From Dermatophagoides farinae (taxonomy: Eukaryota > Arthropoda > Arachnida > Sarcoptiformes > Pyroglyphidae), in NCBI RefSeq assembly GCF_024713945.1, contig NC_134686.1, positions 830,001 to 894,000 on the forward strand: a DNA stretch of 64,000 bases. The letters run 5' to 3'. The translations under genes and the position numbers were made by a program. A model generated the notes under the pieces. It saw only the letters and a list, made by a program, of their open reading frames with translations, was not told where the DNA came from and did no database searches. Positions 26,582-61,863 of the stretch are shown here, one piece after another (the stretch's first letter is position 1; every line of letters begins with the position of its first letter).

Positions 26582-29188
26582 ATGTTGTTTCCATTATCAT
26601 ACAATTATTATCGTCATCGACTTCAATGTCACCATTATATATATAATAATTATGATTATTACATAATATCATCAATGATTTTATGTTCCATTTCTTTGAT
26701 ACAATTTTTCAAAAATATTAATTTGAAATTACCACGTTATTTTTCAATCAAATCATTATTTCATCATCATCGTCATTATAATTATTATCACCATATTTGG
26801 ATATTTTCATTCAATTTATTATTGGTTTTGTGTTTGGAACAACAACAACAACCACAACAAAAATCGATTATCGATAATCATAATCATCATCATTATTATA
26901 ATCCATTAATAAGCCATTTACGTTCATTGAATTTTGGCCTAAATCACCATCATCATCATCATCATCATCATCCATTTACATCTTCATTATCAGCATTATA
27001 TTACATCATAAACAATAATGTTGCACGTCAACAATCATCATCATCAGCTGTTCATAATAATAATAATAATAATAATTCATCATCATCATCATCATTGATC
27101 AATCAATCAGATATTAAATTTTTGATTAAAAAATCATTAGATCATCTTTTATTGAATGATATTTCAATAGATTTATTCGTAAAACCATTTTCGACATTAA
27201 ATTCTTCATTTATTGATTATTTATTAAATGATAAAATCAAATTTTCACGAAAATTACAGCTTTTGCTCACCATTTTAACCCAATCGAATACTAACAACAC
27301 TAATGGAACGTTTAGTGATCGTCATTTTGTTGGTCATCATCATTATGATTATAATGAAAAAAATGTGGCCGCTGTACTACGAAAATCATTGACATCGATA
27401 AGGAAAAAGAATAATACCATCACGGCTACAACTACATCACAATCACCGATAATTGGTCGTTGTTTTGAACCATATGGCTGTTTTCGTATTACCGAACCAT
27501 TTCGTACCATTTATAGGCCAATCAATCTGATACCTGAACCACCAAGTGCAATTAAAATTGCTTTTTATCTACGTACACGTACGAATCCTACATTGGCTGA
27601 ACGTTTACCATATAGTGAAACGAATGAATTTTTTATTTCAAAATATTTTCAACCAGAATCCGATTTAAAGATAATCGTTCATGGATATTTGGAGAATAGT
27701 GATGAATATTGGGTTAATGTAGTGATCGAATCTATAAATTATATATATAATCAAAAATAAATGAAATTCTTAATTCGTTTTCGTTAATTTTTTTTTTGTT
27801 TCTATAGGAAATGAGTTTGGCATTATTGAATCGAGATGATGTTAATGTTATTTGTGTTGATTGGATGTTGGGAGCATCACCACCATATAGTCAAGCGGTT
27901 GCAAATACTCGATTAGTTGGTGCAATGATTGCTCATCTTATTAAACTTATTCAGGTACAGCATTCCAAAATGGAATTAATTCAAGTTCCAAAGTTTTTTT
28001 TTTGCTTCTTTTTTTCCTTTTTTACAATCAAAATTGTGTACATACATAGAAAAGTTATCCAAATCAATTTAGTAGCCACAAAATTCATATTATAGGACAT
28101 AGTCTTGGTGCTCATGTGGCCGGTTATATTGGTGAAATTATTACAGATTTAGGTCATATTACAGGTATGTTTTATACAAATGTTTTCAATCAAAGAAAAT
28201 CAATCTATCTCTCTCTCTCTCTCTTTATTTATTCACATACACCATAGGTCTTGATCCAGCTGAACCATATTTTCAATATACTGATCCAGCTGTTAGACTT
28301 GATAGAAATGATGCAAAATTTGTTGATGTTATACATTCAGATGTGGCTAGTATTATGTCCGGTGGTTTCGGTATGAGTCAATCATGTGGTCATGTTGATT
28401 TCTTTTTAAATGGAGGCGTAAATCAGCCTGGTTGTAAAAAAAATGTTTCCATAAAGAATGTTGTCGATTATATAAGTAAAGAGAAAAACATCTTTGATGG
28501 TATATATTGTATTGTATTGTATTGTTGTTTTTTTCCATTCAATTTTTTACTAAATTTTCATGCCCATCATTATCATTATCATCATAATTTAGGCATACGT
28601 CGATTTATTGGCTGTAATCACGCTCGTTCATTTTTAATATATATTGAAGCCATTAATTCTGAATGTAATTATCATATATCAATTTTTCATTATAAAAAAA
28701 AAAACAACAACAACAACAACAACAAACATTTGGATTGATCCATTTATAGATTTGGCCATTTTTTCTTTAATTTTTTTTTTATTTTCATTTCTATATACAA
28801 TTTAAGGTCCATTTATGGGTTTTCCATGTCAAAATTATGATGAATTTATTAATGGACAATGTTCATCAATGATTGGCGATCATCCATATTATAGTTATTG
28901 TTTTCAAGTACCACGTAAATCATCAATGATGATGACAATGAATCAGACAATATGTCCTATTAGGCTTGGTCCAAATAGTATTGTTGATTATAAAGCCAAT
29001 ATTGAATCGTTCAATAATAATGACGACGATGATGATGATGATAATGATGAAAGAAACAACAAAAATTTTAACATGTCAAAAATTGTTTATTATTTTATGC
29101 AGACAAATGATAAACAACCATTCTGTCATTATCATTATAATATAAAATTAATCTATCAATTACAAAAGAATAATTATCGATTTAATCG

Positions 29189-30710: not shown

Positions 30711-31986
30711 ATGTCTACAATTTTTGATTCAATTCTTGTCTGTTTATTATTGTTGATGATGATGAATAATAATTGTCCAAGACAGCCATTTTTTGTATCA
30801 TCAATGGAAACGTCCACATTATCATTAGCCACACAGCAACAACAACAATCAAGTAAATATATATCGATTAAATTATAAATTCATCATCAATTTTATATGA
30901 AATTCTTAGCCCTTAATAGAACTGTACAGCTTAAAAATGGTCATTATATTCCTGTTGTTGGTTTAGGCACATCAAGGATTGCAACAACATCTGAACAAAT
31001 AATACAAGCCATAAAAAATGCCATCAATGTTGGTTATCGTCATATTGATACGGCCGATTTGTAAGTTTTGAACTTTTTCCCAGTGTCGTCTCACTCAATT
31101 CATTCATTCATTTTTTTTTCACTACTTTTTTGTTCCTGGAAAAAAAACTTCATATACACATAGCTATCAAAATGAAAAAGATATTGGACAAGCATTATAT
31201 GAACTTATACAAGATGGAAAAATTACTAGAGAAGAATTATTCATTACAACAAAAGTATGGAGTAATCATCATACAAAAGAATTGGCAATCAAATCGGTTC
31301 GCCAATCATTAAAAAATCTTCGTATTGATTATCTTGATTTAGTGCTTATACATTGGCCAATGTCATTTCAATCTGGTGATGAATTTGTACCAAAATTCAC
31401 CAATAACAATACAATAATTGGTAGTGATTTGAGTAAAGAAAATTTTGAATTAGCATATCAAGGTTTAGAAGATGCATGTGATCAGAATCTAACCCGTTCA
31501 ATTGGTGTATCTAATTTCAATATAAAACAATTGGATAAACTTTTATCAACAACAACAACAACAACAAATAGACGACGACGATATGAACCAGTAGTGAATC
31601 AAGTTGAATGTCATCCACATTTGAATCAAGAAAAATTACTTGAATATTGTCAAAATAAACACATACATTTGGTTGCATATTCACCATTACGTCGTGCTAA
31701 TGTAGAATTATTTGTTGAACCAAAATTAAAACAAATTGCTTTGGAACATAATCGAACAATTGCACAGATCATTTTACGTTGGCAATTACAAAGGGGTATT
31801 GTTATTATACCACGTACGAATAAAAAACATCGTATGATAGAAAATATTTCATTATTTGATTTTCAACTAAATCAAACAGAAATGTTGGCCATTATGTCAT
31901 TGGATAAAAGCAACAATAATGGTGGCAGAGAAATCACATTTGAATCAGCTTCACATTTACCAGAATTTCCATTTGTTATACAATAA
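30711..31986 (+). CDS. aldo-keto reductase with N-terminal signal sequence (paralogue 1)
   Basis: Exons 30711-30852, 30910-31060 and 31164-31986 give 371 aa. It belongs to the NAD(P)H-dependent aldo-keto reductase superfamily, which reduces aldehydes and ketones to alcohols. The catalytic tetrad is complete: Asp94 and Tyr99 (DTADFYQNE), Lys128 (TTKVW) and His161 (LIHWP). Further family motifs are GVSNFN, NQVECHPHLNQ, YSPL and a cofactor loop IPRTNKKHRM. The barrel normally starts near residue 1; here about 48 residues precede it, including a hydrophobic LVCLLLLMMM segment then Cys, resembling a signal peptide. Secretory targeting is unusual for this normally cytosolic family. It lies about 380 bp after the lipase stop. 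Paralogue 2 is at 60709-61863. Substrate unknown. Confidence 0.92.
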
Positions 31987-32875: not shown

Positions 32876-34640
32876 ATGCCGAAACAATTCGATATATCGA
32901 TTATGAAAATTATCGTTCATCACTTTTTTATCATTATTTGTTCGTTATTATTATCATTATCATTTATGATGACAATCATCAATTGTGACAATAATAAAAA
33001 AAATGATGATGATAAAAATATCATCCTAGATAAATCTGTAAGTAATGATTTGGATTTTAAAAAAAAATTGATTTTTATCAAACCAAAAAAAAAAAAAAAA
33101 ATTTGTTTTTGTTTTTTTCACCACTACTGCAACTTCAACTTCATTCGTTGATGATGATGATGATGATGATGATGGTTCGACGAGAGATTAGGATCTCAAA
33201 ATTTTAATTCAAAATATTAAATTTGATAAAGATTTTTTTCAATCAATTTTGGAAAAAATCCTCATACCACGAAGTGTAAATTCAGCTGGCCATGAAACTG
33301 TTCGGCAAGTATGTCACGAATTTTTTTTTTTTTGAAACGAAAAAATTGAGTGAATTTTTTTTTTTGGTTTTTTTTGTTTGTTTTTTTCTTCTTTGCCAAA
33401 AAAAAAAAAAAATATTTTCAGTATATTAAAAATACATTGCGAGACTTGAATTCACGATGGCATATTGAAGAGGATGTATTCCGGACACGAACACCTGCTG
33501 GTCAAGTTAAATTTCAAAACATAATTGCCACATACGTGCCAGAATTTGGTTGTATACGAAGTAAATCATCATTGAAACGAACAATATTAGCCTGTCATTA
33601 TGATTCATTAAAATCGTCGCTAGTAAAAGGCCATAATAATACGGATATTAATCAAGTGGAAAGATTCACTGGTGCCACCGATGCTGCCGTATCATGTTCA
33701 ATGATGATTTATCTAGCGTATACGATGAATGATCATCTGGAAAAACATTGGCTCCACCATTTCAATAGTAATCGTACCATACAATTGAATACATTGCAAT
33801 TAATTTTTTTCGATGGTGAAGAAATTATTCGTTCTGAACCGAATGCATTACGACGTAATAAACGACGATATAAATCGAAATCACCACAAAGTGATTCATT
33901 ATTTGGTTCAAAACATCTTGCTAATAAATGGGAAAAGATTACGAATAAAATCCATGAACAGAGGAAACGATTCGCTACACTGGCAAATATGACCAATATG
34001 AAACGTTCAAGTCGTTATCTTTTATGTGATGGTCAAGATTCAATATCGGCTAAACAGCGACTGATTGATATTCAAAATGAAAATCAAAATAAAAAGAAAA
34101 ATGGTAAAATTACCGAAGTGTTAATAATATCACCACAAGATTATCATACAATTGATGGTATACAATTATTCATATTATTCGATTTGATCGGTGGATCTGG
34201 TTCGCCACGTTTCTATAATACAAATCTCAATACAAGTCAACATTTTCAGCAATTAATTCAAATAGGTATTTTAAAAAAAATAGATAGGTTTTTTCTCACC
34301 TCGTTTTGATTTAACGTTTGATTTTCTGTTTTTTTTTGTTTCTAATCAAGAAAAAAGTTATCTACAATTCAATAATGAAAAGAAAACAGCCAAATCCATG
34401 AGCGGTGGTAGTAATAAGGTTTTCTTTCAACAGAATCCAGCATTTATGGTCAGTTTTGTACGCGATGATCATCTACCATTTGTCATACGAAATGTACCGG
34501 CACTTCATCTGATACCACATCCATTTCCACGAACATGGCATAGTATGGATGATAATGTTGATAATCTTAATTTTAATTCTATTGGCCGTTTTACGAATAT
34601 TATGCAATTATTTCTGTTAAATTTTTTTCGACCAATCTAA
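32876..34640 (+). CDS. QPCT: glutaminyl-peptide cyclotransferase (glutaminyl cyclase), secretory or Golgi form
   Basis: Exons 32876-33037, 33192-33308, 33422-34265 and 34351-34640 give 470 aa. The enzyme converts N-terminal Gln/Glu of peptides to pyroglutamate in the secretory pathway. Visible: hydrophobic N-terminal segment (about residues 11-36); PRSVNSAGHETVRQ; ACHYDS; GATDAAV (zinc ligand Asp180); FFDGEE (Glu226/227, zinc ligand and acid/base); DSLFGSKHLA; FDLIGG; DDHLPF; LHLIPHPFPRTWHSMDDN (Trp437, zinc ligand His438). All key residues are kept. It is longer than the usual 340-380 aa, from a linker after the signal, a basic RRNKRRYKSK insert after FDGEE and a longer segment before the FDLIGG strand. 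The first exon ends in a low-complexity N/D/K stretch. It converges tail-to-tail with the acyltransferase gene to its right. Confidence 0.93.
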
Positions 34641-34737: not shown

Positions 34738-37700
34738 TCAATTGTCTGTTTGTTGTGGGCGTTTTTGTTGTTGTTGTTGTTCATGTGTCAAACAAGTTGC
34801 TGCATCGTTATTGTTTTTATTATTCAAAACAATATCGTACGTTGATTTAATTGGCGCTGATTTTTTCATTGTTGTTGTTGATGACTTTGGATACAATAAT
34901 AAATGAATCAATTTGGTAAAAGGAAGTTCGAAAAAAATATGTATAATGATTGCAGCAAGAACGGATATTATGATGAGTAGAAAACAGAATGTAAAAGTAC
35001 CGAATTCATTTCTTAATTGTGGAAAACGTGTATGATGTACAATGAACCATGTTAATGGTACATGAACCAAATAAATGGCAAAACTGATTCTAGCCAATGG
35101 TACAAAAAAATGTGATGATAATGTTTTGATAATAATGTTTTCTTTCATTATTGTTGGATATGTTGATAATAAATAGAACATGAATGATAATGATATAAGC
35201 CACAATATATTCGGTATGGTTATAATCAATGCATCCGACCATGAATAGCTGCTAATTAAATCAAGTAATTGTCGTTCTTGTTGATAATCAACATAAAATA
35301 ATGGAAATATATGCGGTACGATGGCCAACATTGCTTGGCTGAATAGAAATAGATTTCTTATTAAAACCTAACCAAATTAAATGATTATATATATATAGGT
35401 AAACAGAGGAACAAAACAACAACAACAAAAAAAATATTAACAAATTTATCATATATAAAACACATGAAAAAAAAATCTAATTATCATTATCGTTATATGG
35501 TCAAACCTTGGACATGTTGAAGATGATTTTTTTGTTGACCATAACACCGATTGTAATGCCAGTAAAATAGGCTTCAAAATGATTATATGTGGCTGTCCAA
35601 TAGAAAAAATAGCCACGATCAGCTAGACTATTTTTTTGGAGGGGAGAAGCGGGGTATATAAATAAAAAACAAAATGTGAAATTAATGATTCCCCCCTTTC
35701 GAAAAAAAGAGATAAATAAATTACGGTAATTGTGGATATAATGGTGAAATGAAAAACGGTATTCCATGTATTTTCCAAATAAACATGACCATGGTCATTA
35801 TGTATGATGAAATGATGAATAAAAATGTTATCATGTAGGCTAAACAATTAAAATTATGATAATGTAATGCCAACACAATGAATGAAAGTAAATAAAGTTG
35901 AAAATCAACGGAAATGTACCATGTTTGAAATCCACACTGTGATGAAAATGAAAATGAAAATTAAACACAATGATGATGATGATGATGAATTGATGGGTGA
36001 AAAAAATATAGAATATCCAACACAAACCATTTGTCTGAAATCTAACCAATTATTTATGTATAACAGATGATATACTAAATTGTTTACACATGGTTTCAAA
36101 TATGGTTCGATAATTTTTTCATGAAATAATGGTCCTGCACCGGTAAAACCTAACAATAATGTTAATATGATATAACCAAGATAACAAGGTGTAAAACGTA
36201 ACCACCGAACCAATACATAACGGCCAAATGATGGTGAATTTTTAGATTTTAAAAAACTTTGTGCTAATAAAAAACCACTAAAAAGAAGAAGTGGGAAAAA
36301 AATAAATCAATTAATTGATTGAGATTGAATAGCAAAAACAAAAACAAAAAATGGCAAAAAAAATTTTGAACCTCATCATAAAAAATGATTTTATAGTCCA
36401 TGTACTATTGACCAGATATCGATTGCTTATATGTTTCATTTGTCGTAGATAATCATCTGGAAAATGAATAAATGGTGATAATGGACTTAAATGTAATACA
36501 CCTTGATTGATTGATACATGTGATATAAGAACTATTAATGTTAATAAAACACGCCAGCCATCGATCCATGGATATTGCATTCGTTTTTTTATAACAAATA
36601 ATGAACGAAAATTTGTACATAACGAAAAACATGATATCATTTGCAATGATTTTGTACCATTATCATCCATTTGAACACCATATATTTCCAATATTGTAGC
36701 CAAAATAATCAATGCAAATAAAATTATTATTGTGGTGGTTAAAATGTATTTGGTTAAAAACCAATCATTAAATGATGAATCCTGTTTTGTTTGACAGAAT
36801 TCAATGTTGAAATTGGTATCGCGTAATGGTTGAAAAGCTGATTTTTTTTGTTGTTGTTGTTGTTGTTGTTGTTCAACAATAACGAAAAACGAAAAAAAGT
36901 TAATAATCAATATAAATAATTGAAAATGCAATTTTTTTTTCATATTTACCATCCTGGATTATATTGCCAACAAATTTTGTTTCACAAACAGATGGTAAAC
37001 ATATTCCATTTGCAATTGGATAACGAACATTGGCCTGTAACCAACGTTCCAATAAAGATTGTTTCCATGTATCATTGATGTTGGCATCAATTTTCAAATA
37101 TTCTGAATTTTGTGTTGGATTTATCGAGGGAAATCTTTTCAAATGATTTGTTGTTGGCAAACGTAATGTAGCAATACAATATTTTCCAATAAATGAGATA
37201 TCATCATCATCATTTTTCGATGATAAATGATAATGATGATGATGGCTAGTAGTATCTATACTGATACAGGAATCGAAATCACCAAAACTAGTAAAAGTAC
37301 CAGATAATAATCCATGGCCAAATATAGATCCAGTAGAATCGATCACTGAAATGAAATGGTGTAAATAATAATTAAATTCAAAATGGAAAAAAAAACAACA
37401 ACAACAAAATTTTCCAACAACAACAAAATAACACTCACATTTAGCTGACCATTCAGTTTCAAGTGGATGTATTAATGTTTGTTTTAATAGTTGTAAACAA
37501 TTTTGATCATTAATAGTTTTGACATAGCTACTAGTGTTGACATTATTATTAAATAAAATTTGATAATATTTTCGATAATTATTAATCATCAATGATTGAA
37601 CATGATTGAAAAGAAAATTATTAGCAATTTGAATCTGATGATCATGAATTATTGGATTAAAATAATCAGCATTATTTTTATATGGATTGGTGGCACCCAA

Positions 37701-37850
37701 ACATATGTTGACAATTAATAATAATAACAACAAAAATGACATGATGATGATGATTATCGTTGTTGTTGATGATGATGATGATGATGATGATATGAACCTC
37801 AAATCATGAAATGATCTTGATCGACTAGATTGTGATTGAAATTTATACAT
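34738..37850 (-). CDS. NRF-6-like (nose resistant to fluoxetine) acyltransferase 3 family membrane protein
   Basis: Minus-strand exons 37850-37439, 37345-36950, 36837-36372, 36277-36028, 35936-35725, 35627-35507 and 35367-34738 join in frame (828 aa from ATG 37850). The more likely start is the ATG at 37742, just before a clear signal peptide (MSFLLLLLLIVNICLGA), giving 792 aa. The lumenal NRF domain has its Cys pattern, ending NGICLPSVCE. Then comes a multi-span acyltransferase 3 domain: IDGWRVLLTLIVLISH (with its His), FFMMSGFLL, YLVRW-like VLVRWLRF, LLYINNW, CGFQTWYISVDFQLY and ARISFAIYLVHVP. In worms the family affects drug and lipid transport; the acyl substrate is unknown. The acceptor at 36840-36838 lies after a CAA repeat but follows a good branch-like TTAAC, and it is the only in-frame choice. 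The C-terminus has a short poly-Q tail. Confidence 0.9.
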
Positions 37851-39437
37851 TTTTGAAGGAAATATCAAAATATATAAAAAAAAACAACTTTCTCACTTTT
37901 CATTCTTAATAATTACCTTTGTTTTCAGTGCAAATGATTCTTTTACAAACATTTATTTTCAGGGCAATATAACTTTATCATCATCATCATCATAGATGGA
38001 CAAATGATGGATTTTTTCTTTTCTTTTTTTTTTAATAAACCGAATATAAACTGATCATATATATGTGTGTATTGCATTTCATCGCAAGAATAATTTTTAA
38101 ATGCCCCCAGCCAGTGATAAAAATAAATAGATTTTCACAAAGATACGGTTGACATTCTTAATATTTGTAAAAAATAAATGATGATGATGATGATGAGATT
38201 GGCAACACCACCACCAGTAGCAGCATCAGCAGCAGCAACAGTACTATAGTGATATCCATCATGAATTTTTGTTTTCCCTTTAATATTTCCCATTTGTTTG
38301 TTTTTTCTTTAACTTCTTTGTTTGTTTGTTTGTTTATGTTTGACATTTATCTTCCATTGTCATATACGTTTTTTTTTCTCTTACTTTATTTGATTCCATC
38401 ACTACAAATAAATGGTCTGGTCAATTGTGAAATATGAACAATGACAATTTTTTTTTGCCATGTTTTTTTTCGGTTAATTCATCAATCAATCAATCAATCA
38501 AATTGAATTAAATCAACCGAATCGATTCAAACAAACACAAACACACACACATCATCATCATCATCATCATGTGGTTTGTTTGAAATGTTTTTTCGTAATA
38601 TTTACCTGATGATAAGTTTCAAGAAAGAAAAAAAAAGACATTTTTTTTTCTTTTTATTTGTACTGTCAATTAGTCATGCACATCATAAAAATATCAAGTT
38701 TCTTCAACGATTTTGCAGATATTTAATCGGTTTTCGATATTTTTTTTTAACAAAAATGGTTTTTATCTTTTATTCTTCTTGATATTTTTTTTACCACATT
38801 CTGTTTGTCTTTGAATCGTTGATAAGGCAGATAAGTAAATGGTAATAGTAGTAGCCAATGGATTGACAACTTGTTCCATGTCCAACACCAATTTTGTCAT
38901 TCATTTCATTTTCTTAATCTCGATTTAATCTTTGGTTTTTACCAAGAATTAAATTACATTTTGAAATACGTTTGAATTAAAACGTTAGAACTTGCCATAA
39001 CCAGTTTGACGAGCAATTTTCAAGATCTATAACGGATTTATTTTTGAATAATTCTTGAACTTTACGCCGTTTGCACAAAAAAAACATTCATGTATCGCCA
39101 TCTATGATGATGATATGTGAGATATATATGTGAATCTATGTGAATCCCAGTGGAAAAAAAACAACTACCATGAAGAATGATGAAAAACCAATATAGACAG
39201 CTTAATTTAATTTATAATATATTTAATATAAGTAAGAAGAGAAAGAAAATAATAACCATAACCTATCGAAGAAAGAAAAAATAGCAAATAATTATTGGCC
39301 TTGACGTTCTTTATCATGATAATGAACGGTGAGGATTCAAAATGAAATCAACAACAACAACAACAACAAGAACAAGAAAAAAGGATGGAAAAAATTTGAT
39401 CGATAAACATGATTAATGTGTCGTGTATCTATATATA
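37851..39437. other. intergenic spacer between divergent genes
   Basis: Separates the minus-strand acyltransferase and plus-strand terpene synthase; it should hold both promoters. Simple repeats include ATC, CAG/CAA and TTTG arrays. A CGCCATCTA motif lies at 39096-39104. No gene seen. Confidence 0.5.
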
Positions 39438-39443
39438 TATAAA
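39438..39443 (+). promoter_or_regulatory. TATA box of the terpene synthase gene
   Basis: TATAAA at the end of a TA run, 42 nt before the ATG at 39486; spacing fits a TSS near 39468 and a leader of about 18 nt. Confidence 0.55.
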
Positions 39444-39485
39444 AAGGACAAGTAAACACAAAGGAAATCAAATCGTGATTTGACA

Positions 39486-40953
39486 ATGCCGCAGGTAAGT
39501 AATTGATTGTGAAATGTTTATGTTTATAAATGTTATTGAAAAGTACTTTTTTTTGTTCCTAAACATTCTAATTAGCCATCGAATGTTGAATATTATGATC
39601 AATTAGATCGATTAAATTTCATTTATCCACATTATGAAAGTCCATTTCCTGTGGTGATAAATCCAAACTATTCCCAATGGATGATACGATACTGTTATGA
39701 ATGGGCTATTGATAATAGTGGACCATTACGAAAACATCAAGCATTCGTTGATTCAATCCGTAATTCTGATCTTGGTCTTTATTCAGCATGTTGTTTTCCA
39801 TCGGCAAATTTTCATCGTTTAGAAAAATTAATGAAATGGTGTACGATGTTTTTTCTTGCCGATGATTATCATGATGGTCTTAGCCGTATACTAAGTAATG
39901 GACAAATTGATTATGGTAATTTTTGGCATCAAATGATCGATATGTTTGATGGTATATTGACCGGCAATCAGTTGAGTATTAATTTTTTTTTTTGCCGAGA
40001 AATTTATATAAAATATTCGAATTTTTTTTTTTGAAACAGATGTAATGAATGGCCAGATTTTATAAAAGCCATACAACGTGTGATGAAAGAAACATATTTC
40101 GATTATACAAAACAACAGATCAATCGATCAATTAAAATGTTTAAAGATTATATAGCTGGTAATATATTGGAAGATGAATGGACCACGAATAATAATAATG
40201 ATCACATGAGTAATGGTAATGGAACAAACGAAACAATTATTCCTAATTGGGATAGTTATATGAAAGCACGTCTTGGTTCAGTTGGTGGTCAGATGACGTT
40301 ACAATTGATTGAATATGCTAAAAATATAGCCCTTACTGATCAGGAATGGAACCATCCATTGATGAAATCATTGATTGATGCTGTATCCGAAGAAATGATC
40401 ATGGTTAATGATCATCTAACATTTCGTAAAGAGGTTGCTGAAGCCAATTTTAAATTTAGCCGTATGAGACATGCTTATACTGTTCTAGTTCATACTAAAG
40501 GTGATTAATTCGAACCAATCATTTATTGTCGATGATAATAATAATTATTTTTCCTATATTTTTCAAATAGGTTTTACATTACAAGAAGCTGTTAATCATG
40601 TACATCAATTAATTCAAGAAAAAGATACCTTTATATTCGATCTAATCGATCAGATTATGCTTGATCCTGTATTGAATTCCAGTACAGAAGCATCAGAACG
40701 ATTACGGCTATATTTGGAAGGTGTAAAAGAAGTATTGGGTGGTTATTGGCGTTATGCTGTTCAAGCACGAAGATATCATGGACAAAATTTTCAATTGGAT
40801 GCTATACCACCTGGTGGACATTTTTTATATGATCAACATCAAACAATTATACTTTTGAATAATAAAAACAAATTAAATAATCATCATAAACAACAACAAC
40901 AACATTATTATGAATGGTTAAAACCGGTACCGGAGAATGTTCAACCAAAATAA
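39486..40953 (+). CDS. canonical class I terpene synthase (microbial-type fold)
   Basis: Exons 39486-39494 (three codons, MPQ), 39576-39970, 40040-40500 and 40571-40953 join in frame to 415 aa. Class I terpene synthases ionise prenyl diphosphates to make mono- or sesquiterpenes. Visible: aspartate-rich motif FFLADDYHD (Asp99, Asp100, Asp103); NSE-type motif NDHLTFRKE (Asn257, Thr261, Glu265); Arg211 in KARLGSVGG, exactly 46 residues before Asn257, the known position of the diphosphate sensor; and Arg356-Tyr357 in YWRYAVQARRY, the C-terminal RY pair. No trans-prenyltransferase pattern (two DDxxD) is present, so this is not an ordinary FPP/GGPP synthase. No signal peptide, so probably cytosolic. 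The last 50 residues are an N/H/Q-rich tail. Introns and AT-rich codons match the neighbours, so it is a resident nuclear gene. The donor at 39971 (CA|GTTGAG) is weak but restores frame and alignment. Product unknown. Confidence 0.88.
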
Positions 40954-43026: not shown

Positions 43027-45974
43027 TTAGTCCAATTCACTATCACTGCTACTTTCACTGAGTTGTAAGTTTGAAGCTCTAGAATCAGCACGTGACCAAT
43101 TGTTTTGAATTGAATTATCACAGTCAGTATCAAAATTGTTTGATGAAGATGCACGGCATAATTTTTTGCTGTTTTTATTCGTTAACGATGCGGCTGATGA
43201 TGGTATATTATTACCACTTTTGCCAGGATTTGATGGCGATGCTTTACTATTGCTATTTAGCATACAAGAAGTGACATATTTTCTGAGCGCTATCAATGTC
43301 TTTGGTTTCAGTGCTTCAAAATCGATTTCAACATTTTGTTCATCATCACATCTCAACGATGGTTCGGTTGATTGCAAAATACGAAGAACATTTTGCAAAT
43401 CGGTTGCTATATAAATGAAAAAAAACATTAAATTAGATTGTATGACAGAATGAAAAATTCAAATACAAACCATGAAGATTTTCAAGATCTTTTTTCAGTT
43501 TTTTAAGATCATCAATACTTTCAGGATTGAATGGCTCAGTAAGCTGATAGGAATCATCAACATCGGAATCCGAATTGTCATCCTCCTCGTCAGAGGATAA
43601 ATGTTTTCGTTTCTTGTTTGCTGAAGATTTTTGGGACAACCTTTTATTTGTTTTAGTTTTATAGCCATTCTTTCTTGGCTTTTTTGAATTGGAAAGTTTT
43701 CCATTCTTAATTCCATTAGCATTTGGTGCGATTGCGTTGAGAAGTGCAGTGGCAGCTGTAGCTTCCGGATTGTGAGATAATGCCGTTGTTAGAGCTTCTC
43801 TCAAGCATGCTACTTGAAATTCAAGCATTTTCATACGATCTTCACTGGCAGGATCATTATCTGCATTAGTATTGCCATTATGTCTATCGGCTATCATTGA
43901 AACATTGATAGGGCTGTACAAATGACCAGATTCATGTTGAGAGACACGACTTTTGAGACTATTTTTCTTATTATTTGTTTCTAATTTCGGTTTTTTGCCA
44001 CTATGAGATTTGCTTGATGAATTCGATGAATCAGAAATATGATGATGACTTGATGATGTTGAGGCACTAGGCATATGTCGTACCGAAATTGATGGAGTAC
44101 TGTTGTGTTTTGGAACAATCAATTTTTCTTTCAAATAATCCTCTGGAAACTGTGCATATCGATATTCGAATGCTTCCTATTAAAATAATCAATAAATGAA
44201 TGAGAATCAATAAAACATTAAGAAATGATGACCATACCCTAAGTTGTCTGGCTTGTTCGATGATGGGAGATTCTGGTGGATTATAACGTAAACAATTTGA
44301 AAACATTAATCTCATATCTTTAGCGAAATCATCCACAGTGGTATATTTTCCCGATTGAATATTCGTCTGATTGAAAACAAACAATGATTAAAAATGATAT
44401 GATATACATGTCATGTAGAAAAAAACTTACTTTGATAGTTGAAAGATCAATCGGTTTTTTAATTTTTTGTAAATAATCAGGATAATCATTTGGATTAACC
44501 GGTTTCCAGAATGGCCAAGCATAATTTTCATGTTTCTTGGTGAACAATTCTTTGACAAATTTACAACACTCGCTCAATGGTTTGTTCAATGGAACTTTTC
44601 TCACTGTAGGTTGTTTCACAGGAGGCGTCGAAATTGGAGCTGGTAAATCTTTACTTGGTTTACGAACCATAACACCTCTCTCACTACGTGTTGTCATCTT
44701 GATTGGTGAGAATGGTCCAACCAAACTGTTTTCACCATTCGGAAATGGAATCTGACCATCGATACTATCTGACAATGATCCACTTCGACGTTTCGAGCTG
44801 CGTTTTTCATTCAATTTTTGAACTAAAAAGGCAAAAAAATAAAAATAATTGAAATGCTCAAGCGAACAAATAAAAACCTACATTCTTCAATGTTTTGTCT
44901 TGGTGGACAGGGAATTTCTTCTTCCACAAGAGGCATATCTTTTAGTTTTTCATTGAAAAATTCTTCCAATTTTTTGCCGGCAGAATAAACATAATCGGTG
45001 GGAGCATTGAAATTATAACAATTTTTGAATATTTGACGGATATCACTGATACATTCACTAGCAGATTGATACCAAAGAAAATTGAGTCGATTTTTGACTG
45101 TATTTAGATCCATTGGTTTTCTGATAACTAGATAATAATGAGGAATCTTGAGACGGACACTATCGACAGGATTCAAGAATGGCACAGCCGTTTTATAGCG
45201 GCAAATGTATTTGGTTAGAATGGTCTTCAGAAAATTTAATTGATTCGTAAAACGATAAGGTATACTATCATCTTCCCTGTAGAAGATCATGTCGGCCATG
45301 CCTTTTATCAAACGAAGACCATTCGGTAAGATTGTTTCACCATCAAAATCAATCGTAATCGATTTCCAATCATCATCTTCAGATGCATCGATGACATTTT
45401 CAATCAATTCTTCAGTGATCAATTTAATTTCATCATCTAAATTTTCATCATAACTTTTCATAGAGATCTCCTCAATCATATCATCATCATGAGATGCAAC
45501 ATCAGAACTATCACCGAAAATACTTGTAGCATGAGAATGATCGAAATTATTTTCGGACATATCACCATTTGATAATAGAAACGAATCTCTATGGATGGCA
45601 ACATCGAATGATGATCGTGTCGATGATGGTGGTGATGGAAGATTAATTGTTGTTGTAGTGTTAGCCATCACTGATGATGAATCTGATTTCAAACTACTGA
45701 TTTCATCATTGGCATGTTCATTAAGATTCGATGATGCACGTGAATTGTCATCATCTTCCTCTTCACAATCATCCAAATTCTGTTCATTATTTAAACTTTC
45801 ATTCGACATGTCAGATGTTGATGATGTCAAATGAGGTCGAAAATGATTAGAAGAGCTATACTTTCGTTTCATGGGGATTGAAGGATTCATTGGTGAAAAT
45901 GGGATGGTCGTTAATTCAAGCATCTTTTTCGAAATGTCCATCGAATTTATCTCATCATGCATTTTTAGTTTCAT
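43027..45974 (-). CDS. BET-family protein: two bromodomains plus ET domain, divergent
   Basis: Minus-strand exons 45974-44882, 44822-44431, 44366-44238, 44176-43471 and 43406-43027 give 899 aa. BET proteins bind acetylated histones and recruit transcription machinery. The first about 240 residues are an acidic S/D-rich extension. Bromodomain 1 follows (FTNQLNFLKTIL ... VPFLNPVDSVRLKIPHYY ... NCYNFNAP), with the acetyl-lysine-binding Asn but with Val where the WPF Trp normally sits. A KR-rich linker, then bromodomain 2 (AWPFWKPVNPNDYPDYL ... MRLMFSNCLRYNPP) with WPF and Asn intact. A short coiled motif (LEFQVACLREAL), a basic Lys-rich region and the ET domain follow (VLRILQSTEPSL ... VEIDFEALKPKTLIALRKYVTSC), ending in an S/D tail (SESSSDSELD). 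The normal BET order is kept. The long N-terminal extension and the missing Trp suggest a specialised paralogue. Confidence 0.93.
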
Positions 45975-48900
45975 GAATTCGGCAATTCAAGATTTTTTTT
46001 CTTTTGTTCACTGTTTGCGCTTTAGAAAATTATTATATAACAACTTTGGTCTTTTTTGGATCGCTGTGAAAGAAAAAGAAACCAAAAGAAATTTGAGATA
46101 AAATGCAATAAATGAAACACGATTTATTATATGGTTTTGTAAAGAAAATATATATTTATTGTGAAACATTATAACACTACAATTTAAGTGAAAAAAAACA
46201 AAGTGTTCAAAGTTCAGTTTTTCTACTGATGTAAGGAAAAAAATGAAAAAAAAATTTCAAGCAAAAGCATGACTAGCATATTGTCTTTCTGAAAAAAATG
46301 TTTTTCATTCAAAATAATTACCAATTATCTTGAATTGTTCTAAACTGCTTTCTCAAATGACACGGAAAAATCATCGAAATTCCCTGAGAAAGAGATCAAA
46401 ATTCACATTTGAAATAAAGCAAAAAAAAAATATGTCCAGTTGTTAGATGGACAGTGGTGGTGGTTGGTGTTGACACGAATTCAGTGGCACAAAATCTGCA
46501 AAATGCAGATTTGCAGCACACCGTATCAATCAATTGATGATAATAATGTTGTTGTCGATTTGGATAGATGAAAAAATGTTGGCTATTCAATTCCAATGAT
46601 TAATCTTTCCAAAAGATTTGATTATTGTTGTTGATGTCGTTGACGAAAGATGGAGATGAAAATTAATGACGACAAAAACAAAAATTAAAATCGAAGCGTG
46701 TTGTTAACATGGAATTTAAAAAAAATTCAACAACAAATCAATTCAACTTTTGTGTGTGTGTGTGTTTGACTATTTGTGCGTATCAATATTACGATTTGAT
46801 ATGATTTTATAATTGAGTGTTGTTGTTGTTGTTGACTATATGGAATTGATGATAATAATGATGAGCAGAAGAAAAAAAACCCGATTATAACGAAGACGAG
46901 GTTTATAAAACGGACAATTAAAAGTTTGTTGCGTGTGTGAATTGGGTGGCAAAAGATGATGATGATGATGATGTTCAATTATTAAATCGAAACAAATTGA
47001 TGATGTTAAATTAATTGCTTAAACACGTTTTTCTTTTGGACGAATGGTCCATACAGAATCCAATACACACAACACAAACAAAACGCACATTCATTCCATC
47101 ATAATGATGATGATGATGATGATGATGAATTCAATCCACACAATAAATAAATGGGGGGAAGAAACTTTCACATTCACAAAACGTTTTATCAATGGGGAGA
47201 ATTCAACAGGAAACACACTGTAAAAACAAATACATATAATACAATAACACATACAAGGCTCATACAAAAACGTTGTGTTTCTGTTTGGAAAGAAGACACT
47301 TTTAGCACAATCGCAGAATACACACACACAAAATACAACACGACAAAGTGAGTGAGTTCAAATACAAAACATATCTGTTGTAAAAATGATGATGATGATG
47401 ATGAACAAGCAAGAGCAGAGAGCAATCAAATGTGAATAAAGAAGAACGGTGAGAGTCACACAACAACACACTCAAATACACAAAACATGAAATGAGAATC
47501 GTTGTCCGTCCTTGGTTAATGTTGTAACGAAAAAAAAAGAAAAAAAAATTTTTTTTTTTGTCACAAACAAAAAAGAGACCAGCACTAATATCAGGTAAAA
47601 TGAAGCACACAAGCAGGCATCCAGCGCGCGAATGATCGTACATAGATCGTGGTGCTGCTGAAACATTTATCATTTTTTCATTCATTTATTAACATCTTAT
47701 ATTCAACTACTACCATCAATCTAATTCAATGAAATACTACTTCTTTTTTCCATAAATAAATTGCTAACAGCATTAAAATTAATGAAAAATGAATAAATAT
47801 ACCCAAAAAATGATAGTAGCATTTATGGATACTATAGAAACATAACTGATAGGATCAAAATGGTCAAAAAGTAGACGTTTAAAATTATGCTATATATATA
47901 TATTTGTAGACCCTATCTTTTTTCTCAATGGATAAATCTCGGCTTTTTCTTATACAATATACACACATACACAAATAGAATATACTTTGTGATTGAATAT
48001 ATATACAAGAATAATAAATGACGACGAAGATATACTGTAAGTATATATATATAAAATAAATTCATTCGTGTGAATAAAAAAAAAATAAAGACAAGGAAAA
48101 AAGGCGCGTACTTCATACATACAAACACATACATACACACATAAAACGTTTGTTTGCATTTTATTACTTTAATATAATACCACATGTACATAGAAAAGAA
48201 AAAAAAATCACCACCATCACTAATGGCAACAACACTATATCATCATTTTCCTTTTCCGTTAAGCGGCATATTCATTGAGCATGAACCATGCCAATATAAA
48301 AATTGTTGTTGGTTGTTGTTGTTGTTGTATATATTGTGGGAAAGGAAGATATACTTTTTTTTTTTTGTTATCATCACTATTTTCACTTGATACATACAAA
48401 CTTGTACAAAATAGTAATAATATCTACTGTCGATTTTCAATTTCAATTTTTCTTGATGATTCTGTATGTGTGTGTGTGTTTTGAAATTCTTGAATTACTA
48501 GTAGTAGTAAATAGTTCCTTATATTATATAAAACAAAATGTTGATGTTAATGTCATTTCCTGTGAGAATTTCCCTTGTCTCTTTCTCTTTTTTCATTCAA
48601 TATTAATACCCCAAAATCAAGTTCAAGTTTTGAATAATTTTTTTTCTTCTTTGATTTATTTCGAATTTATTTTCATTTGTTCAATAATTCCAGAAAAAAA
48701 TAAGACCGGTTACTTGTATGGTGAAATTGCTTAAAGGGATGATCATCATCATCATCATCATTTATGTTCAATGTTCAAAGTACACACCAATATAATCATC
48801 ATCATTTACCATGAAAAGAAAGATTGACGATTGTTGTTGTTGTTGTAGGTATATTTTTTTTCTCAAAACAAAACAAAAAAAAAATCAAATTGCAGCAGCA

Positions 48901-51900: not shown

Positions 51901-53580
51901 CATTTATTTTTTTTCATTATTAGCATGTCAAACACACACACACAGAACAGCATGCTGAATCTGTGGATTCAAAATGATAACAAAAAAAAAGCTGGCGCGA
52001 TATTTAAATCAAGAAAAAATGGCCAAATCGATTTAAAGTAAAAAAATTTATTAAAATAAATAAACAAAAACGAAAGGGTTGCTTGATTTATTCACAAAAT
52101 GATTGATTGATTGATTTTCAAGAATTTTTTTTTTGCATGTTGTTTGTGTGTATGTCTGTATAATATTTTTAGAATTACAGAATTTCAGTAATTTTGTCCA
52201 TCATACTAAAGAATGATTCCAAATCAAATTGAAATATATAAGAATTAATGTGTAGCTTTTAACATTTTTTGTTTGTTTGTTATTTTAGTATATCACGCGC
52301 CTGGTTTTAACACCAAAATCATCATTAAAATCAATGTGTGTGTGTGTGTGTGTATAGTATGAATAGATGGATAGAAAATTCTGAATGAAACAACAACAGA
52401 ATCTAATGCACTGAACCAACACACTTACACACACACATAGACATAGTGAATCAGTTTTCGTCTGAATCTCGGTCATATTCTTGATTCTTTGCTTCTTTTG
52501 CGAATTTCTGTATTCTTGTGTTAATGCGTTCGTGTGTGTGTGTGTTTGGTTTATGTTTGTTGCTCTATTTTTTTTTATTGTCGTTTATTTTTTTTCTCTG
52601 GTTGTTTTTGTTCACATTTTATTCTTGTTGTTGTTTTTAAGATTTTTTTTTGTTTAGTTTGTTGTGTTTGCATCCACACAGTACAGGAAAAGAATATTCA
52701 TTCAGTTTTTGTTCAACATTTGGTTTGATAATTTCATTACTGCCTATTTATATTTATTGATGATTACAATCCAATCGATGACAATGTGAATCATCATCAT
52801 CGATCATCGATTTTGATTATTTTTGATGATTGAATCAGTTGTAGCATCAGCAGCAGCAGCTAGTAGTAGTTAGTTTGATTGGCCATCATTTGGACATTTG
52901 AATCATCAACAATTAAATCATCATCATCATGTCCACGTATAACAAATGTCCAAATATATTTTTTTTTGCACGTGCACGTGTATATTCTATATGTTTCAAT
53001 CAATCAATCAATCGATTCTATTGTGAATGATGCTTCTTCATGATTCATTCAAATCATCATCATCATCCAATCTAATAGTCCCCAAATAATAAAAAAAGTA
53101 AGCAAATTGCCTCTTTTCGCATTTTTTTTGTATTTCATTAGTCCAAAAAAAAAAAATGTTTTTCGTTGTCATTTTGTTGTTTTTATGTGTCTAATTCCGT
53201 CGTTAGGTTGTGTAGTTGTTAATGGTGTGTGTGTGTGGTGTTGGTGTTTGGGTAAAGAAAAACATGATGACGACAATCATGGTATAATTTGCTTTTTCAT
53301 ATGTTTCTCTCTCTCTCTGTGTGTTTGTTTGTTTGTTACTATCTTTATCTCGAATGATTTTCTGTTTTTGTTTTTGATTTGATGAATCAAATAACCAGGA
53401 TTTCATTTCATTTCATTTTTTTTTACTTTGATACATACACATACACATTGAGAATAACCAGGAAAAAGAAGAAAAAAAACAGAATTTTTTTTTTGCTGGT
53501 TGGTTGGTTATCTATAAAATGTTTTTTTGTTTTGTTTTCATTTGAATTTATTATTAATCTTTATGCATTACACAATTACC
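45975..53580. other. 7.6 kb gene-free stretch
   Basis: 5' flank of the BET gene, then microsatellite-rich DNA (GAT, CAA, CA/GT, poly-A/T). Open frames translate repeats only. No RNA gene or conserved exon recognised. Confidence 0.55.
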
Positions 53581-53650
53581 AGCCCGGTACAGGCGCTTCG
53601 CGCCTGCCCCAGACTGGCCCTGCGGGGCTGACTCCTGACAATCAATATAG

Positions 53651-53702
53651 CTGGATACCCGCAGGTGTGGCGGCTGCGCCGCCCCCCCTGCTTGGTACCC
53701 AG
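53651..53702. repeat. hairpin unit A
   Basis: 52 nt, CTGGATACC to GGTACCCAG, with central GGCGGC-TGC-GCCGCC; small differences from unit B in the mid stem (GCAGGTG). Confidence 0.85.
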
Positions 53703-53733
53703 CCAAAGGTATGATTTCTTGAGGTCAATAGAG

Positions 53734-53784
53734 CTGGATACCCGCAGGGGTGGCGGCTGCGCCGCCCCCCTGCTTGGTATCCAG
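53734..53784. repeat. hairpin unit B (most perfect stem)
   Basis: 51 nt. CTGGATACC pairs with GGTATCCAG, GCAGGGG with CCCCTGC and GGCGGC with GCCGCC: 22 base pairs with three unpaired or mismatched nucleotides outside the TGC loop (C, T and TT positions). Confidence 0.88.
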
Positions 53785-53816
53785 TCAAAGATATAAATCC
53801 TTGACGGTCAATATAA

Positions 53817-53855
53817 CTGGAGGTCGGCTGCGCCGCCCCCCTGCTTGGCATCCAG
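53817..53855. repeat. hairpin unit C (left arm partly deleted)
   Basis: 39 nt. CTGG then a shortened left arm, GTCGGC-TGC-GCCGCC and the right arm to CATCCAG; a decayed copy of unit B. Confidence 0.8.
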
Positions 53856-54194
53856 CCAAAGGTGTCAATTTTAACGCTTCGTGCCAGACGGTGGATTTCT
53901 ATGCACGGCGTTTTGCTTCCGGCTTTCGGTTTGGTACCGCAGGGTCAGCCATGACTTTTGTATTGTACCTGACACCTTTGAAAATGTTACGTAAATCCAA
54001 CATCAACTTATTGATCAAACAGCATACTTATTATTGTTCATCGATATCGATAAGAAAAGAAGCCATACAGCTCAGCTTCAGTTTTACTCACACAGGCACA
54101 CAAAATGAAAATCACGTTTGTCACATGTATTATCACAATAATCAATTCGAAAAATTCGAATTCGAACTCTTTCTATGTTCTATTGAATGACTGC

Positions 54195-58545: not shown

Positions 58546-59645
58546 ATGATGTCAACAAAAACAACACAAGAAAATTGTACTGAATCAAATTATCTAAGCC
58601 ATGTATTGACATTAACCGATCGAATATCTGAACCGGCACGTGATTGGATACAATTTTTATTCGATAAATATGAATCAAATTTTGATCGAACATCAGCTAT
58701 TTGTTCGGAAATATTATCACTAATGATATTGACAATGGGCTGTTTCTGGCTAATTGGCTCATTCTATACATTATTGGATTATTTTCAATGGCCAAAATTT
58801 CTATATCGTTATAAAATACAAGATGATAAACAAGTATGTATGTCTGTGTGTCTGTTTGTCTGTGTTTTATTCTTATGAATTTCTTATGAAATCTTTTTTC
58901 TCATTTTCTTATAGATCACATTGGATGATATTATTGAAACGGCAAAAGTAGCATTCTATAATCAAATTACCGTACAATTATTGACAACAGCATTGGGATC
59001 TTTGATAATGAATAATTTACCATTCGACAGAAATTATCGTGTGCCTCCAGTATCGACAATTATTTATCATTTAGTTGTTTTTGTATTTCTACAGGAGATC
59101 ACATTTTACTACTTACATCGTTTACTTCATTATAAATTCTTTTATCGTTTTATTCATAAAATTCACCATAAATGGCAAGCACCGATTGCTATATCAGCAT
59201 TATATTGTCATCCATTTGAACATTTTTTAGCCAATCTTGTGCCTGTACTAATTGGACCATTTTTAATGCTTAGCCATCGTAGTACGATTTCAATATGGCT
59301 ATTGATTGTTCATATTGTTACATTGAATGATCATTCTGGTTATCATTTTCCATTGATGCCATCACCAGAATTTCATGATTATCACCATTTAATGTTAGTA
59401 TAATATATCCTTTATAATATATATCAATCACTTGATCAATAATGAACAAATATTTTTTTCTTTTATCATTTTCATACTTACATCCAAACAAATTGAACAG
59501 GTTCAATCAAAATTTTGGTCGTATGGGATTTTTAGATTATTTTCATGGTACAAGTGAACGTTATTTTAAATCAAAATATTCAAAACGACATCAAGTACTA
59601 CTTAGTTTGACACCAATGAAAATATTGATACCAGATAATGATTAA
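58546..59645 (+). CDS. FAXDC2: fatty acid hydroxylase domain-containing protein 2 (FAXDC2-like, sterol desaturase family)
   Basis: Exons 58546-58833, 58915-59393 and 59501-59645 give 303 aa (vertebrate FAXDC2 is about 333). Membrane di-iron oxygenase of the C4-methylsterol oxidase group, expected in the ER. The histidine boxes are complete: HRLLH (164-168), HKIHH (177-181) and HDYHH (250-254), plus the further conserved His in ALYCHPFEH and HSGYH. Hydrophobic spans lie at about residues 50-70, 103-125, 140-160 and 205-235. The order HKIHHKWQAPI-x-x-x-x-LYCHP-x-EH and PSPEFHDYHH is closer to FAXDC2 than to sterol C4 oxidase. Arthropods lack de novo sterol synthesis, so the substrate is probably dietary sterol or another lipid. 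The exon 2/3 join restores HHLMFNQNFG. Confidence 0.92.
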
Positions 59646-60708
59646 TCTAACAAAATCAATCAAGATTTTATAATATTATTATTGTTTTATTTATAATATA
59701 TATTACATCTATCAAATTGTCAATTGTGTTTCATTTAAAAAATAATCTAATCCAACAAAACGTGAAATGTTTCACTTTATTGATGTGTAAACATACATAC
59801 ACACATAAACAGACACAGACACACAACATTATTCTTCCAAAGATTTTAATATTTGTTATATTATTATAAACGATCAACAAAGTATTTTTCATTCATGAAT
59901 ATTTTGCTATGGCTATTTTTTTTCAGAATAAAGAAAAAAAAACTTATTCATTGAAAAAAAAAACCACTTGTTGTTGTTGTTGCCAGGGGCTCATGTGTGA
60001 ATAACAAAATACCTATCTATTGAAATCAATGATGACGTGAAAATCAATCATCATGATGATGATGATGATCAAAAATGGCAAAAAAAAAAACAACAATCTT
60101 TCTTTTTTTTGTATGATGTTCTTTTTTATTTTAAATTCAAGGAAAATCAACGAAATCAACAATTAATAACGTATATATATTGAGAAGATAAGACTGATAA
60201 ACTACAGGATGGTTAGTAAGAGATTAATACGGTACAGCACATATGAATGTTAATTTTCTTGAATACAAAAGTCAACAATACCGTTTCGATTAAACAAATA
60301 ACACACAATGATGATGATGACGACGATGATTCAGGGACACTGGCATCTATGTTTCTCATTATTAATTCAAATTGAATTTGTTTTTTTTTTTTTTGATCCT
60401 TGAATAATGAGAAAAAAAAATAAAGAAAGAAAGAAAAAGTTTAATTAGAATTTGAAGATGAGATGGTGGTAAAAACAACACAATGCACACACACACACAG
60501 AGAGAGGTTTTTTTTCATTATCGATAAACCATGATGATGGTAGTGTTTGTGTGTGTGTGTGTGTATGCTGCTGCTGCTACTTATCAAAATGTAAAAGAAA
60601 AAGAAAAAACCTCGTCTATTTTTTTCTGAATAAAAAGCCAGAGCCATCCATTCATTTCATTTTTTTTTTAGTTTTTACATTCAAAAAATTGATCAAATTC
60701 GATTCATC
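59646..60708. other. intergenic spacer
   Basis: Between two plus-strand genes. Contains GAT, CA/GT and CTG repeats and poly-A/T; no gene seen. Confidence 0.5.
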
Positions 60709-61863
60709 ATGAAATCAATCAACTGTTCAATAATAATTGGTTTATTATTCATCATGTGTTTATGGTCAACAATTTTCATTGTAATAGTAGATGTTCATCA
60801 ATTGAATTCATCAGATTTTGGCCGTATTGTTGATCATCCACATCGTGATGGATCAAAGTCCAAACAAATTGTCATGAATAATGGCCATTGTTTACCATTG
60901 GTTGCATTTGGTACATGGCAATTGGGCAATAATAGTGTTGTGAAACGAGCCATAAAATCGGCTATAACCAATGGTTATAGATTGATTGATACAGCAGATA
61001 TTTATGGTAATGAACAAATGATTGGTGATATTCTACAAGAATTATTCAAAGAAGGAATCATAAATCGTGATGATTTATTCATAACAACAAAAGTTTGGTG
61101 TAATCATTTTTCCAAATCAAGTGTCATCAAAAGTATACAACAATCGATGCAAAAATTAAAAGTTTCCTATATAGATCTAGTGTTGTTACATTATCCAACT
61201 GGTTTCAAAGAAAATGATGATCAAGATAAATATCCAAAATTTAAAAATGGTTCCATTATACCACGAACATGGAAAAAAGATTCATATTTAGAAACATGGG
61301 AATCAATGGAACAAGCCATACGTAATAATTATACACATTCAATTGGTGTATCAAATTTTAATCGTAGACAAATAAAAACATTACTTTCAAAAGCAACAAT
61401 AAAACCGGTTATTAATCAGGTAATATAATCTAATCAATATGCAAATATATAAAAAAAATGAATTTCATTCAAATTTTTTTTTTTATTACAGGTTGAAAGT
61501 CATCCAAATTTGAAACAAAAATTATTATTAAAATATTTGCTTGAAAATCAGATTATAATGCAAGCATATGCACCAATAAGACGTGCAGATAAAGAATTAT
61601 TAAATGATCCACGATTGATCGCAATTGGTGAAAATCATAATAAAACTAGTGCACATATTGCATTACGTTGGCAATTACAACGTTCAGTACCGATTGTTGT
61701 GAAAAGTTCAAATCCAAAACGAATAAAATCCAATATACAATTATTTGATTTTCAATTAACCAATGATGAAATGAAACAAATTGATATGATTGATGAAAAA
61801 CAACGTATATATGATATAAATGGACTAACTAATCATCCAGATTATCCATTCAATGAAGAATAA
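60709..61863 (+). CDS. aldo-keto reductase with N-terminal signal/anchor (paralogue 2)
   Basis: Exons 60709-61419 and 61492-61863 give 360 aa. NAD(P)H-dependent carbonyl reductase fold with a complete tetrad: Asp94 and Tyr99 (DTADIYGNE), Lys128 (TTKVW) and His161 (LLHYP). Also GVSNFNRRQ, NQVESHPNLKQ, AYAPIRR and a cofactor-binding loop VVKSSNPKRIKSN. Residues 8-27 are strongly hydrophobic (IIIGLLFIMCLWSTIFIVIV), a signal peptide or type II anchor. The four catalytic residues fall at the same numbers as in the paralogue at 30711-31986, so the N-terminal extensions are the same length in both. It has one intron, placed just before the VESHPNL motif, where paralogue 1 has none, and lacks paralogue 1's two introns. 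Substrate unknown. Confidence 0.93.

Follow-up and report, generated by a model that had tools for sequence, protein, structure and literature searches.

A gene of the dust mite Dermatophagoides farinae is predicted from its sequence to encode a canonical class I terpene synthase (TPS) of the microbial type. It lies at positions 39486..40953, on the plus strand, of a stretch of 64,000 nucleotides that was analysed as a whole (contig NC_134686.1, positions 830,001 to 894,000; hereafter the window). We give a probability of roughly 0.93 to the reading that the gene is intact, belongs to the nuclear genome of D. farinae, where genome searches located no second member of the family, and codes for such an enzyme. 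In a Pfam scan the product matched PF19086 (Terpene_syn_C_2) at 91.6 bits (E 7.5e-26, cut-off 23.7), while three other matches at E ≤ 10 all fell under their own cut-offs. A sequence search of the PDB gave 43 distinct sequences at E ≤ 10, the best of them the terpene cyclase AriE (9lpb, E 1.5e-10), and a fold model of exons 2-3 had the alpha-helical class I terpenoid synthase fold. An earlier note, made from the letters of the window, had named the product a canonical class I TPS, and the Pfam, PDB sequence and fold matches back that assignment. The profile search that the note had suggested as a check placed the product well above the PF19086 cut-off and gave no match to PF00348 at E ≤ 10.

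Catalytic motifs, gene structure and setting

Canonical class I TPSs carry a DDxxD/E motif and an NSE triad, (N,D)Dxx(S,T)xx(K,R)E, together with an Arg that senses pyrophosphate and precedes the NSE Asn by 46 residues, and an RY pair. The mite protein has the Asp-rich motif, the NSE triad, the sensor Arg and the RY pair, and the conservation of each was counted across 47 aligned rows, those of the mite and of 46 bacterial proteins (Table 1). D103 is variable in these rows (D in 10/47), and the position of T262 holds S in 45/47 and T in 2/47. The DDxxD and NSE motifs did not recur at the observed spacing in any of 20,000 protein shuffles; the Arg and NSE pair, 46 residues apart, recurred in 3/20,000 and was present in one of the 65 stop-to-stop frames of at least 100 amino acids in the window. 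DDYHD, the RY pair near the C-terminus and the exact spacing of R212 and N258 had all been read correctly in the earlier note, and the motif spacing that it called typical of bacterial or fungal TPSs matches the bacterial alignment; its NSE motif is also real, but had been placed at residues 257-265, one residue too early.

These motifs bear on whether the protein could instead be a TPS derived from an isoprenyl diphosphate synthase (IDS), as in beetles and other insects. A DDxxD motif is common to both classes, and D. farinae has several IDS loci: its genome gave PF00348 matches on contigs C6, C9 (two places about 16 kb apart), C8, C7 and C3. Some of these loci are farnesyl diphosphate synthase (FPPS)-like pieces with both Asp-rich motifs, DDIMD and DD(Y/F)LDCFGD (C6:4074677-4075554; C9:3247375-3247950 and C9:3264151-3264387), and the C9 pieces may belong to a single gene interrupted by a long intron, or to two genes. 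Because they were chosen as PF00348 matches, the five IDS pieces that were scanned provide no independent evidence. The second motif of the TPS, however, is NSE and not DDxxD, PF19086 scored 91.6 bits where no PF00348 match was listed at E ≤ 10, and a blastp comparison with an FPPS-like exon of D. farinae gave a best E of 4.5 (a single exon compared). We regard an IDS-type origin as ruled out by the family assignment and give it practically no probability.

The four exons of the canonical TPS gene join to 1248 nt, encoding 415 amino acids and a TAA stop, and the three introns, of 81, 69 and 70 bp in order, are all GT-AG. The exon joining, the open frame and the introns confirm the four-exon gene and 415-residue product proposed at the outset. 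An ATG upstream of exon 2 is required, because the frame of exon 2 is closed just before 39576. For intron 2, two other donors were rejected on manual reading, one at 39976 that led to an early stop and one at 39952 that was out of phase; across the junction chosen, the spliced protein aligns loosely with bacterial TPSs. A TATA box had also been claimed, and a TATA-like string is indeed present at the place listed in Table 1, but such strings are common in the window: TATAWAAR occurs 31 times on one strand and 20 times on the other, in an AT-rich genome. The string would fit a promoter, and we read nothing further into it. Near the C-terminus there is a Gln-, His- and Asn-rich (Q/H/N-rich) stretch (residues 385-404, window 40858-40917), which lies past the end of most of the aligned bacterial enzymes.

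A protein of microbial type in a mite assembly calls to mind microbial or symbiont contamination, the more so as bacterial DNA is put at 22.99% of earlier D. farinae reads (PMC8487952), but the three short introns, a G+C content of 32.5% and a G+C content at third codon positions (GC3) of 0.20, which resemble those of the neighbours (six gene pieces nearby have GC3 values of 0.14-0.28), and the presence of animal-type genes on the same contig all argue against it, as does the annotation of a TPS gene in D. pteronyssinus (PMC12105342). Contamination is ruled out by the introns, composition and neighbours, and we consider its likelihood negligible. The same introns, host-like GC3 and animal-type neighbours agree with the domestication in the mite genome that the earlier note had envisaged. 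That note had also taken the DNA to be from a mite; the genome is that of D. farinae, and one of its frames is identical over 112 residues (22-133) to the allergen Der f 21 (5yny, 9had), whereas a cathepsin frame and an ML-domain frame did not point to any species. About 0.8 kb separates the Der f 21 gene from another gene of the Blo-t-5 family, which is on the opposite strand (C4:4170433-4171937). When the whole genome (62,435,336 bases, 22 contigs) was searched with PF19086 and with the protein, no TPS locus was found beyond this one, the count being a lower bound.

The adjoining bromodomain frames on the minus strand are probably one animal-type gene, which would anchor the locus in a mite chromosome. 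The frame at 43433-44176 had no Pfam match, several other long frames of the window had none above cut-off, and no terpene gene was seen among the neighbouring frames of the window that Pfam matched. Two aldo/keto reductase genes lie about 30 kb apart in the window; these are common enzymes, and we draw no link between them and the TPS. The G+C content rises to 0.34, against a background near 0.29, at window positions 44001-46000 and 52001-54000, the first of these rises overlying the bromodomain frames.

Table 1. The TPS gene, its motifs and neighbouring features, in positions of the window
Feature	Position	Strand	Basis
Metal-binding motif DDYHD, residues 99-103	39861..39875	+	D99 in 46/47 and D100 in 43/47 aligned rows
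R212, pyrophosphate-sensor Arg, 46 residues before N258	40269..40271	+	R in 46/47 aligned rows
NSE-type metal-binding motif NDHLTFRKE, residues 258-266	40407..40433	+	N258 in 47/47 and E266 in 46/47 aligned rows
RY pair, residues 356-357	40771..40776	+	R in 47/47 and Y in 45/47 aligned rows
Exon 1, ATG and first three residues (MPQ)	39486..39494	+	Donor CAG/GTAAGT (exon/intron), strong
Exon 2, residues 4-134 and part of 135	39576..39970	+	Splice joining; own-genome protein match, query residues 3-137
Exon 3, part of 135, 136-288 and part of 289	40040..40500	+	Splice joining; PF19086 own-genome match spans exons 2-3
Exon 4, rest of 289 to 415 and TAA	40571..40953	+	Splice joining
TATA-like run, possible core promoter	39434..39446	+	About 40-52 bases 5' of the ATG; consensus match only, AT run
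Two bromodomain (PF00439) matches, one partial, in adjoining frames 44823-45986 and 44329-44877	44329..45986	-	Pfam
NRF-type protein piece (PF20146)	36900..37892	-	Pfam above cut-off
Acyltransferase-3 match, sub-threshold	34738-35367	-	Pfam
Lipase frame	28136-28738		Pfam above cut-off
Aldo/keto reductase frame	31072-31986	+	Pfam above cut-off
Aldo/keto reductase frame	60634-61428	+	Pfam above cut-off
M28 peptidase frame	33350-34309		Pfam above cut-off
Fatty acid hydroxylase frame	58915-59403		Pfam above cut-off

Bacterial relatives and origin

Bacterial relatives were drawn from plasmids, GTDB genomes and a sample of one phylum, and are mostly Actinomycetota. A tblastn search of plasmids matched 32 of 72,556 records at E ≤ 10, of which nine were taken further; three of the plasmid matches (H29, H31 and H32, E 4-7) may be chance. 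At E ≤ 0.001 the mite protein matched two of four genomes and, in the single-phylum sample, 7/396. Viral contigs gave no match when scanned with a single protein, and none of the 22 matches that an alignment-based pattern (A1) made there was a relative. Among genome contigs A1 was too loose; a second pattern (A2) returned 34 stretches with no relative among them, and a third (A3) recovered 31 relatives in 39 stretches. Phage sequences, searched with a single bacterial TPS, gave no match at E 1e-5.

For the tree, one weak reverse-strand match and three identical duplicates were removed from 50 matches and one short row was kept, leaving 46 bacterial rows to which the mite protein, cut to residues 1-380, was added; the midpoint root served for drawing only. 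In this 47-row tree the mite stands beside, and not inside, the sampled bacterial subfamilies, its branch measuring 1.54 changes per column, with the warnings that the placement of long rows is unsure and that the letter make-up of the mite row is deviant. Its highest identity to a sampled bacterial row is about 22%. When a further five rows were dropped, a second tree, of 42 rows, gave a mite branch of 1.55 and a top identity of 22%, with two weak forks at the root (74/44) and a starred set of 16 rows. Both trees hold the mite and bacteria only.

A long branch and a letter make-up flagged as unlike that of the bacterial rows might be expected of a relative that is catalytically dead or differently used, and enzyme activity is only predicted for the mite protein, but the mite protein retains the catalytic residues that were checked, and no stop interrupts its 415 codons; we consider such a loss or change of function improbable and continue to predict an active TPS. 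The phylogeny suggested in the earlier note has been run in its bacterial part and puts the mite beside the bacterial subfamilies, without pointing to a clear donor. The ancient horizontal transfer that the note proposed is consistent with this result, but a bacteria-only tree leaves the mite on its long branch.

The canonical TPS family is not known from most animals. Because of this distribution, and of the view taken in published accounts of mite TPS genes (PMC6275457, PMC12105342), we infer a horizontal gain, and the gene would be an old microbial one acquired by an ancestor of these mites.

Predicted reaction and possible pheromone role

Class I TPS chemistry depends on two metal motifs, three Mg ions, closure of the active site, ionisation and a pocket that guides the resulting cation. 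By analogy we propose that D99 and D100, with N258, T262 and E266, bind three Mg ions in the mite enzyme, and that these would hold the diphosphate of geranyl, farnesyl or geranylgeranyl diphosphate (GPP, FPP or GGPP). R212, K265, R356 and Y357 would sense and hold the diphosphate, closure over it would trigger ionisation and with it a carbocation reaction, and the pocket would steer the cation towards a single product or a small number of them, which may be mono-, sesqui- or diterpenes. Our best guess is a Mg-dependent mono- or sesquiterpene synthase that makes a semiochemical. We suggest, more weakly, that the product is a volatile signal, perhaps made in greater amounts by males, in view of the male-biased expression of derpt14g00520 in D. 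pteronyssinus. For the pheromone or defence role put forward in the earlier note, this published bias is the closest evidence. That gene, the one TPS gene named in its source, is described there as horizontally acquired, with expression up to 6.3-fold in males and a suggested pheromone role; the same source refers to Xiong 2022 for homologues in other astigmatid mites (PMC12105342).

Neryl formate is reported as an aggregation pheromone of both Dermatophagoides species; in D. pteronyssinus, males and females alike give nerol and neryl formate, only males give neryl propionate, and tritonymphs give none of these (PMC4592581). One speculative explanation, to which we attach a low probability, is that the TPS turns GPP into nerol, or into nerol and geraniol, so feeding neryl formate and the neryl propionate of males. 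The male-biased TPS expression in D. pteronyssinus would fit, as would the single strong cis-prenyltransferase locus found in D. farinae (a lower bound); production of nerol and neryl formate by both sexes speaks against it, as does a geraniol-isomerising route, which would need no TPS. The own-genome search with PF01255 (cis-prenyltransferase) gave one strong and one weak place, the pattern presumably expected of the ordinary dolichol enzyme and its partner. There is therefore no clear separate neryl diphosphate synthase among these places, and thus a TPS route or an isomerase route to nerol is thinkable, not shown.

The steps that follow the mevalonate pathway in mites are described as poorly studied (PMC12105342), and the one canonical TPS gene found in the genome provides a single candidate, open to testing, for a step in pheromone synthesis that has no enzyme assigned to it. 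Were the enzyme to make nerol, it would be the missing branch-point enzyme of the monoterpenoid pheromones of dust mites.

Comparison with known terpene synthases

Several points weigh against an intact and active canonical TPS gene and have to be set beside the evidence above. Exon 1, three codons long and without homology support, rests on splice signals and frame, as does intron 2, whose donor (GTTGAG) is weak, and the fold model covers exons 2-3 without exon 4. Activity would follow from family chemistry, and the parallel with D. pteronyssinus assumes that derpt14g00520 is the orthologue. Nine NCBIfam terpene synthase models were matched at E ≤ 10, two of them above 0.01 and all far under cut-off, the best of the product-specific models reaching 63.4 bits against a cut-off of 500; because of these scores the product cannot be named. 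A BLAST search in which trombidid TPSs were run against an earlier assembly of D. farinae is reported in 2018 to have given no significant homologue, a negative for which that paper suggests symbionts or rapid evolution (PMC6275457) and on which the gene described here bears.

No report of a D. farinae TPS appeared, by title or opening of the abstract, among the open-licence matches listed. Chen's 2024 PNAS paper reportedly describes canonical TPSs, not derived from IDSs, in the nuclear genomes of mites, springtails and fungus gnats, and some of those arthropod enzymes are said to have been assayed. The D. farinae gene may already be listed there or in Xiong 2022. Other work citing Chen 2024 mentions five fungus gnat TPS genes apparently from mites (PMC12051294) and TPS transfer among arthropods (PMC13389597). 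Acquired TPS genes in mites are thus already in print, which limits the surprise; that they include a dust mite gene had gone unmentioned in the earlier note. The kind is known in dust mites and other mites, and D. farinae adds a new example of it, or at most one newly described in detail.

The closest parallel is derpt14g00520, from the same genus and likewise described as a horizontally acquired TPS (PMC12105342); it has sex-resolved RNA-seq, whereas the D. farinae gene is known here from sequence. The TPSs of Leptotrombidium deliense and Dinothrombium tinctorium are also described as laterally acquired and of microbial type, but form large families, L. deliense having two clusters (39 and 17 members) and D. 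tinctorium one of 21 (PMC6275457), compared with the one gene found in D. farinae. Among enzymes of known structure, 10-epi-cubebol synthase (7zrn), AriE (9lpb) and Copu9 (7ofl) share the fold and family of the mite protein at 18-19% identity in structural alignments. The introns and the Q/H/N-rich tail set the mite gene apart from the bacterial and fungal class I TPSs to which it is otherwise akin.
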